Positions 25,417 to 34,233 of a stretch of 64,000 nt of DNA are shown here, in pieces (within the stretch, counting starts at the first letter, position 1; every line of letters begins with the position of its first letter). The stretch comes from Paenibacillus taichungensis (GTDB lineage Bacteria; Bacillota; Bacilli; Paenibacillales; Paenibacillaceae), in assembly GCF_003287275.1 (NCBI RefSeq), contig NZ_QEVW01000005.1, positions 62,001 to 126,000 on the forward strand. Reading direction: 5' to 3'. The notes under the pieces were generated by a model that saw only the letters and a program-made list of their open reading frames with translations, did no database searches and had not been told where the DNA came from. The position numbers were made by a program, and so were the translations under genes.

Positions 25417-27801
25417 TTACCGCTCCCGTCCAATGATGTAATCCAACAGATGTCTTAAAAAAGAAATCGGCTTTGGCATTTCGTTCAGCGCATCGGTTGC
25501 CAGACAATAGTGCTCCCACATCTCTTTCTTCGCACCATCTTCACCCAGAATGGATACAAAGGTTGAACTGTTGTTCCTAACGTCCTGACCTGCCGGCTTA
25601 CCGAGTATCCGATGATCCCCTTCCAGATCCAGCAGGTCATCCTTAATTTGAAAGGCAATACCTGCATGATACGCAAACTTTTTTAAGGCTTCAATCTCTA
25701 CGTCCTTCACCTGAGCCAGAATGGCGGGCATCACAAGTGCAGCCTCGAAAGCAATACCTGTTTTGTAGAAACAGATCATGTTCAATTGTTCCAGGGTCAG
25801 CGTTTTTCCTTTGGCATTCAGATCCATCGCCTGTCCCATACACATATCCTCTGCTTTTTCAGCGGAATATTGAATCAGGGTAAGCACGGTTGCGGCATCA
25901 AATTGATTGAGGGAAGATTGCTCGCCAATGGCCTTTTGGATGAGAAATAATCCTGTTAATTCCGCAGTTGCGCTATTATGCACCTGATGTAAGGTGGAAC
26001 GGCCTCGCCGGGTCGAAGCATTATCCTGGGTCGGCAGATCATCAAAGATCAGTGATGCGGTATGCATGTATTCCAGTGATCTCAGAAGAGGAATGATTGA
26101 CGATTCATGCAGTCCATATTCACGTACACCCATCACCCAGGTCAGGATCGGCCTAAGCCGTTTTCCATCTCCCTGCAGACTGTAATTCGCTGCATCAATA
26201 AGCGTTCCTTTCATCTCTGGAAGTCCACCCGGCTTGGAAATCTGTAATTCAATATTAATCTGTTCACGAACCGTACGAATCGTATCCAGAAAATCCTGTT
26301 TTTCGCGCTTGTCATTTTGCAATTGGAGGATGACCTGATCCCGCAGCAATTTATCCAGAAAATCAACATCATCGGCTTTTCGTACCATTTGCTGAATGAG
26401 ACGATTGAATTCCGGTTGTCCGGAGGCAAAGATATTCATCACTTCGTTGTATTGTTCTTGACCCAAACGCGCTCTACAACGCTTTAGACCATTAATAGCC
26501 CGATCCAGTATGACCTCCCGGGTCTTCGCATCCGAATGGTATACTTCATGAATCAGATAGGAAATAACCGCCCAGTATAGCTCATACGGATTGATCAGAT
26601 CAGGCCGCAGGTCACGATACTTCAGATAGTAGGTATACGGAGTCACTGCCCCATCCTCCATATCGTCAAACATATCAGCGAAATCGTCCGCGAGCTGATT
26701 ATATATGCCATAGTAGAACGTCCGCAGATCAAACCCTTCATCCGCAGATGCACTGAGCACGGAGCGAACAATGAGTCTGGAGGATGAGGATTTAATAATA
26801 ATCGGAATATAAAGTTCTTCATTGGAATAATTCGCGTTGGACAGTTTTTTGGCACGGTCTATTTCCTGAGACTGAAAGAATACATAAGATTGCTCGAAGA
26901 ACGTACGCTGCGTCTCAGGGCGCTGGTAGTTCTTAATATACTCAAACGCATCACGAAGCTCGGAGTGAACATATTGAATGACTTGGAGATTGGCTCCCTT
27001 CCATTCGCCGATATCGGGCACGATCCCGGTGAGAAGCGCATTGCGAATCAAGAGAGAATATTGCTCCTTCTCTTGTGCAGTCAACGCCTGCGAATCGAGC
27101 AGGTCATCAATAAATGGATAGGTCAGTCCGTAAGAATAACCAAGCCGAATCGCAGCATCTAGCCTCTCTGAACGTTCTGCCTGTGGAGTCTCATCATTCA
27201 TATCATCGTTCACATGCAGAACAACGCCCAGAATAATCTTGAGCAGTTTGCGCTGTGCCTGTTCTGCGTCCAGTTCTTTGGGGATATTGGAAGCGACATT
27301 TTTTAATTTGCTGATGACCCAGATAACGGCTGTTTCCACGTTCTCCTTCTGAGCCCAGCGATACAAGGCGGCCAGACTGATATAATCCGGACTTTCCTTG
27401 TGATGGGTTGTATTTGAACGCATAAAATACGCTTTGGTATCCTGAGCAACACGCTGTATGCGTGCTTGCGTGTCCGAGGAATCCAGTGCTTTGCCCAGAT
27501 CTCTCATATAAATGTAAGAAATACTGCGGTCCAGGTAATCATCCAGTTTGCCTGTAACATTCAGCCAATGGATATATCTATGAGCATCCCGGGAATCCGG
27601 TTTTTTTCGACTTGGTGATAAAAAAGATAACCAGGAAAAAGATTGAATATGTTTCTTTTGCCACAAGTGAATATCTTGCGTAAGCGCAGTTGTATACGTG
27701 TTATTCAGAAGTTGTTCATGAAGAGAAGTAAAATACTGAGCTGCCTTCTGCTCAGCCAGCCGATATCCTGCATCAGCCTGATCTGTAAGTACGTTATTCA
27801 T
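25417..27801 (-). CDS. Two-domain isoprenoid synthase: N-terminal class-I-like domain fused to a polyprenyl diphosphate synthase
   Basis: 794 residues, far longer than the usual 290-350 of a prenyl diphosphate synthase. The C-terminal part (about 500-794) is complete: GKRLRP at 546-551, first Asp motif DDLPTQD at 587-593 with RRG at 598-600, and second motif DDLLD at 721-725. The N-terminal 480 residues are all-helical and carry DDLLD at 232-236 and QLADDFAD at 369-376. The 140-residue gap between those Asp motifs nearly equals the 134 in the C-terminal enzyme, so I infer a second class I isoprenoid fold. It lacks the RRG and GKR IPP-binding motifs, so it may be a terpene cyclase-like domain. 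Start ATG 27801 after TTGAGG. Product unknown. Confidence 0.8.
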   Translation of the reverse strand: MNNVLTDQADAGYRLAEQKAAQYFTSLHEQLLNNTYTTALTQDIHLWQKKHIQSFSWLSFLSPSRKKPDSRDAHRYIHWLNVTGKLDDYLDRSISYIYMRDLGKALDSSDTQARIQRVAQDTKAYFMRSNTTHHKESPDYISLAALYRWAQKENVETAVIWVISKLKNVASNIPKELDAEQAQRKLLKIILGVVLHVNDDMNDETPQAERSERLDAAIRLGYSYGLTYPFIDDLLDSQALTAQEKEQYSLLIRNALLTGIVPDIGEWKGANLQVIQYVHSELRDAFEYIKNYQRPETQRTFFEQSYVFFQSQEIDRAKKLSNANYSNEELYIPIIIKSSSSRLIVRSVLSASADEGFDLRTFYYGIYNQLADDFADMFDDMEDGAVTPYTYYLKYRDLRPDLINPYELYWAVISYLIHEVYHSDAKTREVILDRAINGLKRCRARLGQEQYNEVMNIFASGQPEFNRLIQQMVRKADDVDFLDKLLRDQVILQLQNDKREKQDFLDTIRTVREQINIELQISKPGGLPEMKGTLIDAANYSLQGDGKRLRPILTWVMGVREYGLHESSIIPLLRSLEYMHTASLIFDDLPTQDNASTRRGRSTLHQVHNSATAELTGLFLIQKAIGEQSSLNQFDAATVLTLIQYSAEKAEDMCMGQAMDLNAKGKTLTLEQLNMICFYKTGIAFEAALVMPAILAQVKDVEIEALKKFAYHAGIAFQIKDDLLDLEGDHRILGKPAGQDVRNNSSTFVSILGEDGAKKEMWEHYCLATDALNEMPKPISFLRHLLDYIIGRER

Positions 27802-27990
27802 AGGATGGATACCTCAACTTCTCAGAATGTTAAACATGTATCCATGAAAGGAGTTTGAGGGTGCTCCATGGACGAAAACTGATGTGAATTCATGCAACAA
27901 CAAATTCGCCACCTCATGTTCATAACCTTTATACGGCATTCCATCCGTTTGGTTACGAAATCGTCATGGTCGCTTCAATCCTATGTGGTT

Positions 27991-30081: not shown

Positions 30082-31611
30082 CTAGTGTGAAGCAAAATAT
30101 TCATCTGACTCAGAAGCAGGGTCGAATTTTTCCTTACTCATAAACCACGCAGCCAATAGGGCAATAACGGCCGGAATGATGGCCCAGGCAAACGTATGAA
30201 CGATGGATGAGGACAATGCTTCTGTAATCTTATCCAACATTGGCGCAGGAATATCAGCACGAGTGTCCGGTTTTAGGACTAAGCTAGGATCACTCAGATT
30301 CACGCCACCACCCTGCTCACTACCATTACTATTTCCAAAGAAGGAGACCAATTTACTCGTAAATACGTGACTTTGTACGATACCAAATACCGTGATTCCC
30401 AACGTCATACCGAGTTCCCTATTGAAGTTAAGTGTTGAACTGGCCGAACCACGCTGTCTTGCCGAGAAACCGTGAATGGCTGCATTGCTCAATACAGAGA
30501 ACGAAGACCCAATGCCCAGACCAACCAGAATCATGAAGATAGTCACCATAAATCGGGAGGAATCTGTCGTTAACGTTGTCAGCAAGGCAATACCAATAAC
30601 CAGCAGCGCGAGTGTAGGTAACATGATGGAGCGGTATCTGAGCTTGGTAAGCATGGCTCCTCCACCCGCAGCTGTCACAACCGATCCAAGCATCATCGGC
30701 AGAAGAACAAGACCGGAATTGGTGGCCGATCCACCAAGTACACCCTGAATATAAATGGGGATATAGATGGAAGCTGTAATAAAGGCTGCACCGCTAAATA
30801 TGGCCATCAGATTGCTGGTGGAATACAGTCGATTTTTGAACATGCTAAATGTAATAATCGGTTCTGCCACTCGGCGCTCTATGAACACAAATGCAGTCAT
30901 CAGCACGGCGAACGCAGCAAACAAACCCACGATCATGCTGGAATTCCAGGCGTATTCCTTGCCTCCAAGTTCAAGTGCAAACATGAGGCATACGATGGAA
31001 GCTACCAGTGTGAATGCGCCAAAATAGTCAATTTTCTGTTTGGAATGCTCTACGGATTCTTTATAGAAGAATGCAATCATGACAAAGGCGATCAGACCAA
31101 GTGGCAGGTTGATATAGAAAATCCAGGACCAATGAATGTAATCGGTAAGATAGGCTCCGAGAAGAGGTCCGAAAATACTGGATAAACCAAAGACTGCACC
31201 GAATAGTCCCCCCACTTTACCCCGTTTGTCTGCGGGAACGACATCAAACATAATGGTAAATGCGATCGGCATCAACGCCCCGCCGCCGATTCCCTGAATC
31301 GCACGATAAATACTGAGCTGAATGATGGAATCCGCCGTCCCGCACAATGCAGAACCAATCATAAATACAATGATTCCAAAAATGAAAAATCGCTTGCGCC
31401 CATACATATCCGATAGTTTACCGAAGATCGGCATACCCGCCATCTCTGCAACCATATAGGCAGAGGTGACCCACATTAATTTATCAAATCCACCAAGATC
31501 ACCTACGATGGTACCAATTGCAGTGGCAACGATGGTGTTATCCATCGAAGCCATAAGAATGGCAAGCAGCAAGCCTGCAAGAATAACGCCTAATTTATTG
31601 CTTTTTACCAT
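30082..31611 (-). CDS. MFS multidrug efflux transporter, DHA2 (EmrB/QacA) type
   Basis: Fourteen-helix exporter, 509 residues. N-terminal segment LAILMASMDNTIVATAIGTIVGDLGG holds the DHA2 Asp in helix 1 (split mentally at MDNTIV). Motif A is GKLSDMYGRKRFF, and motif C is FGLSSIFGPLLGAYLTD in helix 5. Start ATG 31611 with AAGGGG upstream. It is 27 bp downstream of the UvrA-like gene and 66 bp upstream of the SDR gene. The divergent MarR gene makes antimicrobial or phenolic efflux the most likely role. Confidence 0.93.
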   Translation of the reverse strand: MVKSNKLGVILAGLLLAILMASMDNTIVATAIGTIVGDLGGFDKLMWVTSAYMVAEMAGMPIFGKLSDMYGRKRFFIFGIIVFMIGSALCGTADSIIQLSIYRAIQGIGGGALMPIAFTIMFDVVPADKRGKVGGLFGAVFGLSSIFGPLLGAYLTDYIHWSWIFYINLPLGLIAFVMIAFFYKESVEHSKQKIDYFGAFTLVASIVCLMFALELGGKEYAWNSSMIVGLFAAFAVLMTAFVFIERRVAEPIITFSMFKNRLYSTSNLMAIFSGAAFITASIYIPIYIQGVLGGSATNSGLVLLPMMLGSVVTAAGGGAMLTKLRYRSIMLPTLALLVIGIALLTTLTTDSSRFMVTIFMILVGLGIGSSFSVLSNAAIHGFSARQRGSASSTLNFNRELGMTLGITVFGIVQSHVFTSKLVSFFGNSNGSEQGGGVNLSDPSLVLKPDTRADIPAPMLDKITEALSSSIVHTFAWAIIPAVIALLAAWFMSKEKFDPASESDEYFASH

Positions 31612-31638: not shown

Positions 31639-34143
31639 TTAAAGCCCTTCGGCTAATATACGCTTCAAAAATTGTCCTGTATGGGAGGCTCTGATCTCCG
31701 CCACCTGCTCCGGCGTACCTTCGGCTACCAGCTCGCCACCCGCTGCGCCACCTTCTGGGCCAATGTCAATAACCCAATCGGATTCCCGAATCAATTCCAG
31801 ACTGTGCTCTACAACGAGAACGGTATTCCCCGATTCAACCAGCTTATCCAGCAAAATATGGAGTTGCTTGATGTCTGACGGATGAAGGCCGGTTGTTGGC
31901 TCATCCAACAGATAGAGCGTGTGTTTTTTGGTCTTTTTACTCAGCTCTTTTGCCAGCCTGATCCGCTGTCCCTCACCGCCTGACAATGTTTTAACTGATT
32001 GACCCCACTGGAGGTAACCAAGTCCAACTTCACACAACATCTCGACAAGATCGGCGATTTTGGTCTGACTTTTCAAGACAGGCAGACTTTCGGCAACCGA
32101 CATATTTAGGACATCGGATATCGAGAAGCCTTCGTATTGAACCTGTAACACTTCATCCACGAACCGTCTGCCCTTGCAGTCATGACAAGTTACCTCCAGA
32201 TCAGGCAGGAAGTTCATGTCTACAGACAATACCCCAAGACCTTGACAGGTTTCACAACGCCCTCCGGGTGTATTGAACGAGAAGTGCTTCGCAGTTAGCT
32301 TTCGTGCTTTGGCATCTGGCAAACCAGCGAATAGCTGACGCAGATGCGTAAATACATCGGTGTAGGTGGCAACATTCGACCGTTGCATTCTGCCCATCGG
32401 AGTTTGGTCAAAAATAACGATATCACCTACGTGCTCCAAGCCTGTTATCTCTTCACAACCTGTTGGTTTCAGACCTGACTCCAAACCCTGTGCGAGGATA
32501 TCAAATACAAGCGTGGATTTGCCGGACCCCGAAACACCCGTTACGGAGATCAGTGTTCCTAATGGAAAAGATACAACCGGAATATCGATGTTGCGCAAAT
32601 GCGCTCCCCGGATGGCAAGATGCTGCCCCGTACCTGTTCTTCGGTTATAAGAAGGACTAGCCAAAGATTCATTTCTCAGATAAGCTCCCGTAACCGAAAG
32701 TTCACTTGCCATTAAATCCTCCAGACTCCCTTCACCAACAACTATCCCTCCATTGACTCCAGCACCAGGTCCAATGTCGATCACATGATCGGCAGCACGC
32801 ATCATCTCAATATCGTGTTCAATGACGAGGATCGTATTGCCCAGATCACGAAGCTCCTGAAGTACACGAATCAGGCCAATGGTATCTTTCGGATGAAGCC
32901 CTGTTGTCGGTTCGTCCAGAATATACAATACACCCGTTAAACCAGAGCCCAGAAGCGATGCAAGTCGTAATCGCTGAGCTTCACCACCAGATAAAGTTAC
33001 GGTCTGACGATCCATGGAGAGATAGCCAAGTCCAACATCCATAATGCGCTTCAATTTGGTGGGCAGATCATGAAGGATTGGATCAAGCAGATGATGTGCC
33101 TCGGGTAAGATCACTTCTTGAAGTCCTGCCGTCCATTCCAGCACTTTACTGAATGACCAGTTGGTAACCTCGGAGATAGATGCGCCAGCTACGTTTACCA
33201 ATAGAATTTCTTTTTTCAAACGGTCCCCCTGACATTCAGGACACTGCTGTTGATGAAAAAAACGTCCGTCTTTTTCCGTTCCACCACCTTCTCCTTCCTT
33301 TTCCTTATAGCGTCGCCACAATCCGGGGATTACACCTTCGAACTTGGTTCCCTGGATCGGCTTGATATTAGGGTAATGCTGCTTGAATTCTTCGCTATCG
33401 ACGCCGTAGTACAGCAAGTCACGGTCGATTTCACCAAGGTCCTTCAATGGCCGATCCGGATCGAATCCGAATCCAAAATGCTCTCCAGCTGCAACCAGAA
33501 TTCGGATCTGAATATCCCGATGCACACCATTTAACGAAGCTACACCTCCATCCCGCACACTAAGCTCAGGATTGAATACAGCGGCTTCGTTGATTGATGC
33601 CACATGCCCCAGTCCACTACATACATCACAAGCACCCTCCGGTTTGTTGAACGAAAAGTGTGACATACCCAATTTCTCCAGCTCGACATTGCAATGCGGG
33701 CAATGCATAATCTGATGACCCATGTATTCGTCTTCCTCGGTTAGATGACCAGCCGCTTCCCACGATGGCGAAATGTTGCCGTTACAGAATGGACATGTAC
33801 GCTCCCCAAGTCTGGAAAAAATGAAACGAACGTAAGTGTAAATGTCTGTCACTGTTCCTACCGTTGAGCGTGGATTCCGGTTAGTAATGTGCTGTCCTAC
33901 GCTGATGGAAGGAGAAAGACCTGTGATCGACTCCACTTTTGGTTTGCTGATCGAATCCGATGTTAACCCCATCGATTCCATGTATTGTCTCTGGCATTCT
34001 CGCTGAAGGGTATCCATTGCCAGCGTGGATTTGCCGGAGCCGGACGGACCCGTTAAAACAACCAATTTATACTTCGGAATCGAAAGTGAAATATTCTTCA
34101 GGTTGTTCTCCCGTGCACCTTTAATCATCATTGTGTCTCTCAA
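31639..34143 (-). CDS. UvrA-like excinuclease ATPase (UvrA2 class)
   Basis: Tandem ABC ATPase with zinc modules, about 834 residues against 940-960 for housekeeping UvrA. N-terminal IKGARENNLKNISLSIP, Walker A GPSGSGKST and GVSGSGKST, two signatures LSGGEAQR and LSGGEGQR, and Walker B ILDEPTTGLH and LLDEPTTGLH. CxxC zinc pairs include CPFC/CPHC, CDVC, CPEC, CETC and CHDC. The shortness fits the UvrA2 class, which lacks the UvrB-binding region and is often linked to resistance to DNA-binding drugs. The best start is TTG 34143 behind AAGGGG; ATG 34131 is the alternative. First gene of the operon, divergent from marR. Confidence 0.9.
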   Translation of the reverse strand: MRDTMMIKGARENNLKNISLSIPKYKLVVLTGPSGSGKSTLAMDTLQRECQRQYMESMGLTSDSISKPKVESITGLSPSISVGQHITNRNPRSTVGTVTDIYTYVRFIFSRLGERTCPFCNGNISPSWEAAGHLTEEDEYMGHQIMHCPHCNVELEKLGMSHFSFNKPEGACDVCSGLGHVASINEAAVFNPELSVRDGGVASLNGVHRDIQIRILVAAGEHFGFGFDPDRPLKDLGEIDRDLLYYGVDSEEFKQHYPNIKPIQGTKFEGVIPGLWRRYKEKEGEGGGTEKDGRFFHQQQCPECQGDRLKKEILLVNVAGASISEVTNWSFSKVLEWTAGLQEVILPEAHHLLDPILHDLPTKLKRIMDVGLGYLSMDRQTVTLSGGEAQRLRLASLLGSGLTGVLYILDEPTTGLHPKDTIGLIRVLQELRDLGNTILVIEHDIEMMRAADHVIDIGPGAGVNGGIVVGEGSLEDLMASELSVTGAYLRNESLASPSYNRRTGTGQHLAIRGAHLRNIDIPVVSFPLGTLISVTGVSGSGKSTLVFDILAQGLESGLKPTGCEEITGLEHVGDIVIFDQTPMGRMQRSNVATYTDVFTHLRQLFAGLPDAKARKLTAKHFSFNTPGGRCETCQGLGVLSVDMNFLPDLEVTCHDCKGRRFVDEVLQVQYEGFSISDVLNMSVAESLPVLKSQTKIADLVEMLCEVGLGYLQWGQSVKTLSGGEGQRIRLAKELSKKTKKHTLYLLDEPTTGLHPSDIKQLHILLDKLVESGNTVLVVEHSLELIRESDWVIDIGPEGGAAGGELVAEGTPEQVAEIRASHTGQFLKRILAEGL

Positions 34144-34233
34144 AATCGATCGTCCCCTTTGCAAATAAGTACAGAGTTCGTTAAAATAAGTTGAAATTAT
34201 TCATACGTCAATCTAGTATCTCCAAAATTTATT

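Follow-up and report, generated by a model that had tools for sequence, protein, structure and literature searches.

What does a protein do that joins a prenyl diphosphate synthase to a second domain of no recognised family? This question is raised by a gene on the reverse strand of the 64,000-nucleotide stretch of Paenibacillus taichungensis DNA analysed here (the window). The reading that we favour, and that we regard as fairly probable, is that its product is a self-feeding bifunctional isoprenoid synthase, in which the C domain would make a prenyl diphosphate for the N domain to ionise. The gene and its two domains are the following:

25417..27801 (-), gene of the putative two-domain isoprenoid synthase, with an ATG start and 794 aa
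26332..27801 (-), N-terminal domain (residues 1-490), with a predicted class I isoprenoid-synthase fold and no recognised family
25420..26307 (-), C-terminal domain (residues 499-794), a complete trans prenyl diphosphate synthase with GDGKRLRP, DDLPTQD...RR, KT, FQIKDDLLD and GKP

From 158 fetched loci we recovered 157 proteins, of which 155 have at least 700 aa and are encoded by one unbroken frame; the interrupted copies L019 and L100 were excluded, and some loci carry the same gene twice. Removal of exact duplicates left 133 non-identical full-length relatives, whose identity in residues 1-480 goes down to 35%, and conservation is given below for this set. Interrupted copies of the fusion gene were seen in L019 (the same as G059), L100, G007, G030 and G057, and may reflect either assembly error or gene decay.

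The C-terminal domain

The view of a first-pass annotation that the C-terminal part is a complete polyprenyl diphosphate synthase is borne out by both sequence and structure. Firstly, the C domain matches PF00348 with an E-value of 4.7e-49 and 167.3 bits against a cut-off of 27 (best stretch 534-755), and it matches the sequence of the S. aureus geranyltranstransferase 1rtr in the PDB (4.6e-44). The top NCBIfam profile is that of farnesyl diphosphate (FPP) synthase, under its cut-off (211.5 of 275 bits). Secondly, structural alignment by VIA-align of the model of residues 499-794 with the E. coli FPP synthase 1rqi gave a Z of 36.3. Thirdly, the prenyl-synthase motifs GKRxR, DDxxxxD..RR, KT, QxxDDxxD and GK are all present and conserved: K547, R550, D587, D588, D593, R598, R599, K680, T681, Q718, D721, D722, D725, K735 and D740 are each kept in all 133 relatives, and no catalytic residue listed for this domain falls below 132 of 133. 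In the AlphaFold2 model of the whole protein, the Asp motifs of this domain terminate helices 566-588 and 700-727.

In prenyl synthases, a bulky residue five positions before the first Asp (FARM -5) ends growth at C15, and a small one allows passage. The C domain has Ala at this position in 132 of 133 relatives. Two further prenyl-synthase matches are present in the genome (L002 and L003), which from reading we take to be IspA-like and HepT-like, respectively, and the IspA-like protein has Tyr at FARM -5 (HTYSLIHDDLPAMD). Because FARM -5 is Ala in the C domain, as against Tyr in the genome's own FPP synthase, the chain-length rule would predict a product of C20 or more; judging from these residues, the product probably exceeds FPP in length, C20 being our best guess.

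Fold, motifs and possible function of the N-terminal domain

Sequence searches place the N domain in no family. Residues 1-489 had no match in Pfam at E <= 10, PF10776 (YtpB/DUF2600) included, and none in NCBIfam, and no credible sequence match was found in the PDB with either the single sequence or the profile, the top profile rows (E 0.013) being a receptor kinase. In the distant N domain of locus L171, the second Asp motif matches PF00348 below threshold (13.5 bits). Comparison of the N- and C-domain profiles was not significant (P about 0.1); the best local alignment sets the second N motif onto the SARM of the C domain. Likewise, the N profile had no significant match (P 0.05-0.5) to the genome's own IspA, HepT-like, YtpB, squalene-hopene-cyclase (SHC) and squalene/phytoene-synthase (PSY) type proteins. 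In the alignment with IspA, the first N motif lands on the IspA SARM, and IspA (21.7) and the HepT-like protein (21.2) score above their reversed or shuffled versions (12.2-18.8), a rise not seen for YtpB, SHC and PSY. As none of these profile comparisons was significant, we dropped the idea that the N domain is related in sequence to the C domain or any of the five proteins.

The AlphaFold2 model of the whole protein, built from 72 aligned sequences, is confident and all-helical (pLDDT 86.9, pTM 0.85), and residues 1-493 alone gave a pLDDT of 86.9 and a pTM of 0.88. The N-domain model consists of a class I core of about residues 149-490 and an additional helical extension (1-148), which is less conserved than residues 149-480 (mean identity 54% versus 71%) and contains the invariant residues R92, Y96, R100 and D101 (133/133). 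Helix 482-518 connects the N and C domains in the whole-protein model.

When the N-domain model was compared with the PDB by Foldseek, the best 50 of 590 matches were 49 prenyl synthases, among which we count Rv2173 by assumption, and one terpene synthase. The best match is 3oyr (E 2.0e-3, prob 1.00); these matches are modest, none of the 590 reaching E <= 0.001 and the TM-score by query being 0.22-0.31 among the matches listed. With VIA-align 2 (998 chains), the best 50 rows are terpene synthases, judging by their titles, and families missing from these 50 rows stay possible. They include 5-epi-aristolochene synthase 5eat (Z 14.2, rmsd 4.7 A, 263 aligned residues, model residues 149-493) and the ent-kaurene synthase BjKS 4xlx (Z 13.9), with the program's own caveat that helical models can reach a Z of 14 through a common arrangement. 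Membership of the N domain in the class I isoprenoid-synthase superfamily is thus well supported at the level of predicted structure. The first-pass annotation had read the N-terminal half as a second class I fold, and the predicted model, Foldseek and VIA-align all agree with it; it had also named structure prediction followed by structural search as the way to check this, and these matched isoprenoid enzymes and did not yield a non-isoprenoid fold.

Foldseek also matched the N domain to two giant-virus proteins in BFVD, from Pithovirus LCPAC403 (A0A481ZCB8, E 2.5e-5) and Cedratvirus kamchatka (A0A6G8MX44, E 2.6e-4), with a TMt of 0.64. Of all Foldseek matches to the N domain across the two libraries used, these have the best E-values, better than that of any PDB chain. 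The two proteins differ from the N domain in their size of about 300 aa, share 13-16% identity with it and are uncharacterised; judging by this structural likeness, they may represent class I isoprenoid enzymes not yet described.

Within the class I core, three motifs are strictly conserved:

27238..27252 (-), R184-K185-x-x-K188, near the start of helix 179-200, each residue invariant (133/133)
27094..27108 (-), first Asp motif DDLLD, residues 232-236, closing helix 207-236, with D232, D233 and D236 invariant (133/133)
26662..26700 (-), second Asp motif NQLADDFADMFDD, residues 368-380, closing helix 357-375 and running past it

In the 794-aa frame, DDLLD (232-236) and QLADDFAD (369-376) lie exactly where they had been placed initially, and the reported gap of 140 residues, against 134 in the C-terminal enzyme, is correct when counted from first Asp to first Asp (232 to 372 and 587 to 721). 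Loss of the Asp motifs in homologues, which would have spoken against the original reading, was not found: they are strictly kept in all 133 relatives. In the second motif, N368, Q369, D372, D373, D376 and D380 are invariant (133/133), and its spacing, DDxxDxxxD, is the same as that of the C-domain motif 721-729. The canonical NSE/DTE motif is absent from the N domain, DDFADMFDD standing in its place. Considering the predicted fold and the helix ends, at which both Asp motifs lie, the two motifs would be expected to face a common cavity. Further invariant residues are R342, R346, R434, N437 and R441 (133/133), and K337-S338 is invariant in 72 sequences, hhalign pairing K337 with the C-domain residue K680. 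The helix carrying R184-K185-x-x-K188 precedes that of the first Asp motif, and the place of this motif is approximately that of K547-R548-x-R550 in the C domain. Thus, the earlier statement that the N half lacks the IPP-binding Lys/Arg motifs holds for the literal GKRxR and RRG motifs, which are absent on reading of the sequence, and does not hold for basic residues as such, since R184, K185 and K188 are present and invariant.

In the mechanism that we propose, the C domain would build an all-trans prenyl diphosphate by condensing allylic diphosphates and IPP. Mg2+ and the diphosphate group would be bound by the DDLLD and DDFADxxxD motifs of the N domain, and this domain would ionise the prenyl diphosphate, leading to release of a terpene hydrocarbon or alcohol. 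The fusion would hold both steps on one chain, and transcription would start at the ECF-sigma-type promoter described below. What the analysis itself establishes is the two folds, that of the N domain by prediction, the conservation of the residues and of the promoter pattern, and the distribution of the fusion; metal binding, ionisation, chain length, transcription start and the role in envelope stress are what we infer.

The N domain could instead be a second prenyltransferase, joining the C-domain product to another prenyl diphosphate or acceptor, either head-to-head or by elongation, without cyclisation. We consider this unlikely, and yet it is the main rival of the bifunctional reading because of the form of the second motif, the invariant basic residues, which lie approximately at the IPP-binding place of the C domain, and the scores of IspA and the HepT-like protein, which rise slightly over those of shuffled versions, unlike those of YtpB, SHC and PSY. 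Indeed, the second motif has the prenyl-synthase form (QLADDFADMFDD, compared with QIKDDLLDLEGD in the C domain), R184-K185-x-x-K188 would also fit a prenyl-transfer site, as might the invariant K337-S338 with K337 aligned to K680, and prenyl synthases fill all but one of the best 50 Foldseek rows. On the other hand, no RRG follows the first motif and no literal GKRxR is present, VIA-align lists terpene synthases, and none of the profile comparisons reaches significance.

Some prenyl synthases are known to be regulated by subunits, and the N domain, which matches no catalytic family, might be a dead or regulatory partner that shapes the chain length or assembly of the C domain, in the manner of the small subunits of heteromeric prenyl synthases. 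This is decidedly improbable: a dead regulatory domain is hard to square with the invariance of the motif Asp and of many Arg/Lys residues in all 133 relatives, and the stand-alone relatives discussed below keep DxxxD and DDxxDxxxD. Finally, an inactive C domain next to an N domain that works alone, fed by the IspA-like and HepT-like synthases of the cell, is very improbable, given the retention of the catalytic residues listed above.

Distribution and relation to known systems

The fusion is present in 59 of 60 genomes of the genus of the window (its own included) and in 9 of 39 others of the order. The order-level scan had reported 69 of 99 genomes, from which G083 was then removed, its match (E 1.1e-4) lying in an S-layer-like frame without the motifs. 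At the level of the class, the fusion was found in 43 of 398 genomes and 11 of 145 genera; as the frame that holds the N domain has at least 776 aa in all 43, no split form was seen in the class sample. In the phylum sample there were matches in 9 of 398 genomes: in eight the frame has 797 aa or more, and the ninth (G821) has a distant relative. The closest named locus is from P. taichungensis (97%), and the best 80 of 339 named loci are all from Paenibacillus except those of Brevibacillus invocatus, Fontibacillus panacisegetis and Neobacillus soli. A pattern scan found no relatives in viral contigs, and tblastn at E <= 1e-3 found none on plasmids.

Stand-alone relatives of the N domain occur in another family of the phylum, outside the class (f188; G780 and G821). 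One has 419 aa (L186, 8302-9561 (+)), and the other (L178, 3-1193 (-)) at least 397 aa. The L178 protein had no Pfam or NCBIfam match, and that of L186 no credible PDB sequence match. When aligned with the N-domain profile by hhalign, the stand-alone relatives gave a P of 6.2e-8 over window residues 148-390, with both Asp motifs, DxxxD and DDxxDxxxD, retained and in register, which indicates that the N domain can exist alone. Across the 133 fusion proteins, the distances of the N domain correlate with those of the C domain (rho 0.85), which is what a fusion of long standing would lead one to expect.

The obvious comparison is with the chimeric prenyltransferase-terpene synthases (PTTS), which PMC8307374 describes as unique to fungi and as single chains of about 700 aa, with the TS domain N-terminal and the prenyl synthase C-terminal. 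The protein of the window resembles them in having an N domain of predicted class I TS type and a C-terminal trans prenyl synthase on one chain. It differs from them in several respects: it is bacterial; no sequence relation to known TS families was found in Pfam or the PDB; its second motif is DDxxDxxxD and not NSE (as the motif is defined in PMC8307374); it has an extra 148-residue N-terminal helical part; helix 482-518 links its domains, compared with the 70-residue flexible linker of the fusicoccadiene synthase PaFS (PMC8190136); and the fusion is spread through nearly all sampled genomes of one genus, with no constant neighbours. Because no sequence relation was detected and no canonical NSE triad is present, we do not class the protein as a member of the PTTS. 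The original comparison with fungal bifunctional terpene synthases stands for the domain order, and fails for the NSE form and for sequence relation; the fusion protein may nevertheless work like a PTTS enzyme.

Compared with bacterial FPP and GGPP synthases (PF00348), the C domain is a full member that differs by Ala at FARM -5 and by its fusion to another domain. The tetraprenyl-beta-curcumene synthase YtpB (DUF2600) of Bacillus, which we take to be a class I terpenoid enzyme, is likewise found in Bacilli. Its operon is under an ECF sigma factor (PMC11708026 and PMC8144471). Unlike YtpB, the N domain lacks a PF10776 match, and the genome encodes a separate PF10776 protein. Replacement of YtpB by the fusion was rejected on the grounds that the genome has both PF10776 and SHC-type genes; as a PSY-type gene is also present, the fusion gene is an addition to the genome's own terpenoid genes.

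A literature search covering titles and abstract openings, with subscription journals mostly outside its scope, found no report of a bacterial PTTS-like fusion, and the words 'bifunctional' and 'two domain' are absent from the accessible text of a survey of terpene genes in spore-forming bacteria (PMC12654598). We put forward, tentatively and with somewhat less than even confidence, a broader proposal: Bacilli may own an independently evolved counterpart of the fungal PTTS, a near-core-genome single-gene terpenoid pathway whose N domain would found a new class I family standing between prenyl synthases and terpene cyclases, and whose terpenoid product would act in the ECF-sigma envelope-stress response. 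If this is true, common soil bacteria would possess a self-contained terpenoid route under a conserved stress-type promoter pattern, the new class I family would lie beyond recognition by Pfam and NCBIfam, and the route would hint at a membrane or signalling lipid as yet uncharted.

Promoter pattern and gene neighbourhood

Upstream of the fusion gene lies a candidate promoter:

27931..27957 (-), putative ECF-sigma-type promoter CGTAACC-N15-CGTAT (CGTAACCAAACGGATGGAATGCCGTAT), its first base lying at -156 relative to the start codon, between this gene and the upstream permease gene

We take the pairing of AAC and CGT at a spacing of 15-18 to be the ECF-sigma form, of the sigma-W/M type of B. 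subtilis. The pattern [TC]G[TAC]AAC-N15..18-CGTAT is found upstream of the gene in 78 of 95 loci, which include many close relatives and are thus not independent cases, and in which spacer sequence and distance (-65 to -170) vary; it is found in none of 95 control stretches 1.5 kb further upstream. In 100 shuffled sets, which preserve dinucleotides only approximately, it occurred in a mean of 0.2 and a maximum of 2 of 95. The 78 loci divide into 73 of 81 (the window and 80 named loci) and 5 of 14 distant ones, the strict promoter being absent from the other 9. Promoters of sporulation and other sigma factors showed no clear excess in the 95 loci (sigE 1 versus 0.1 expected, sigK 9 versus 8.0, sigF 2 versus 1.3).

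Elsewhere in the genome, the strict pattern was upstream of none of the 30 sigma-region-2 genes examined (of 32), the sigma gene L214 being preceded by a variant, TGCAAC with a CGTC -10, and no ECF-type pattern lies upstream of the genome's own YtpB, SHC and PSY genes. GTAACC-N14..16-CGTAT occurs 12 times genome-wide, compared with 15 times for the reversed pattern, and all but two of the 12 fall within open frames of more than 150 aa; since the count is no higher than that of the reversed pattern and few copies are intergenic, the pattern alone defines no regulon. The other copy outside a frame (L202, C57 113938-113963 (-)) precedes a 359-aa coiled-coil frame, presumably EnvC-like, and the same sigma factor may also act on this gene.

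In B. subtilis, ytpAB is transcribed by sigma-M under stress and by sigma-E in sporulation, and the YtpB product is the C35 tetraprenyl curcumene (PMC11708026 and PMC8144471). Because the promoter of the fusion gene is of ECF-sigma type, as with YtpB under sigma-M, its product is likely made under cell-envelope stress; judging from the promoter pattern, the gene is probably induced by such stress.

The genes next to the fusion gene in the window are, by our reading of their frames, presumably those of a TauE-type permease (upstream) and a PAS-containing hybrid histidine kinase. As the first-pass annotation had noted, these offer no known cluster, and the wider comparison agrees, with no constant neighbour across 16 divergent loci and no constant context in the 95 loci, where a loose SDR family is the commonest neighbour within 7 kb (28 loci), followed by a permease (23), a membrane-type protein of 322 aa (22) and the kinase (15). 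A SelO-like gene, which we take to be YdiU, lies on the same strand within about 5 kb in four of the 16 divergent loci (L126, L167, L169 and L170), and the stand-alone relative in L178 likewise has one nearby; the genes in between differ. Elsewhere in the window, an 841-aa UvrA-like frame (31639-34164 (-)) lies beside a transporter-like frame (30082-31611) and resembles a transporter-linked UvrA paralogue.
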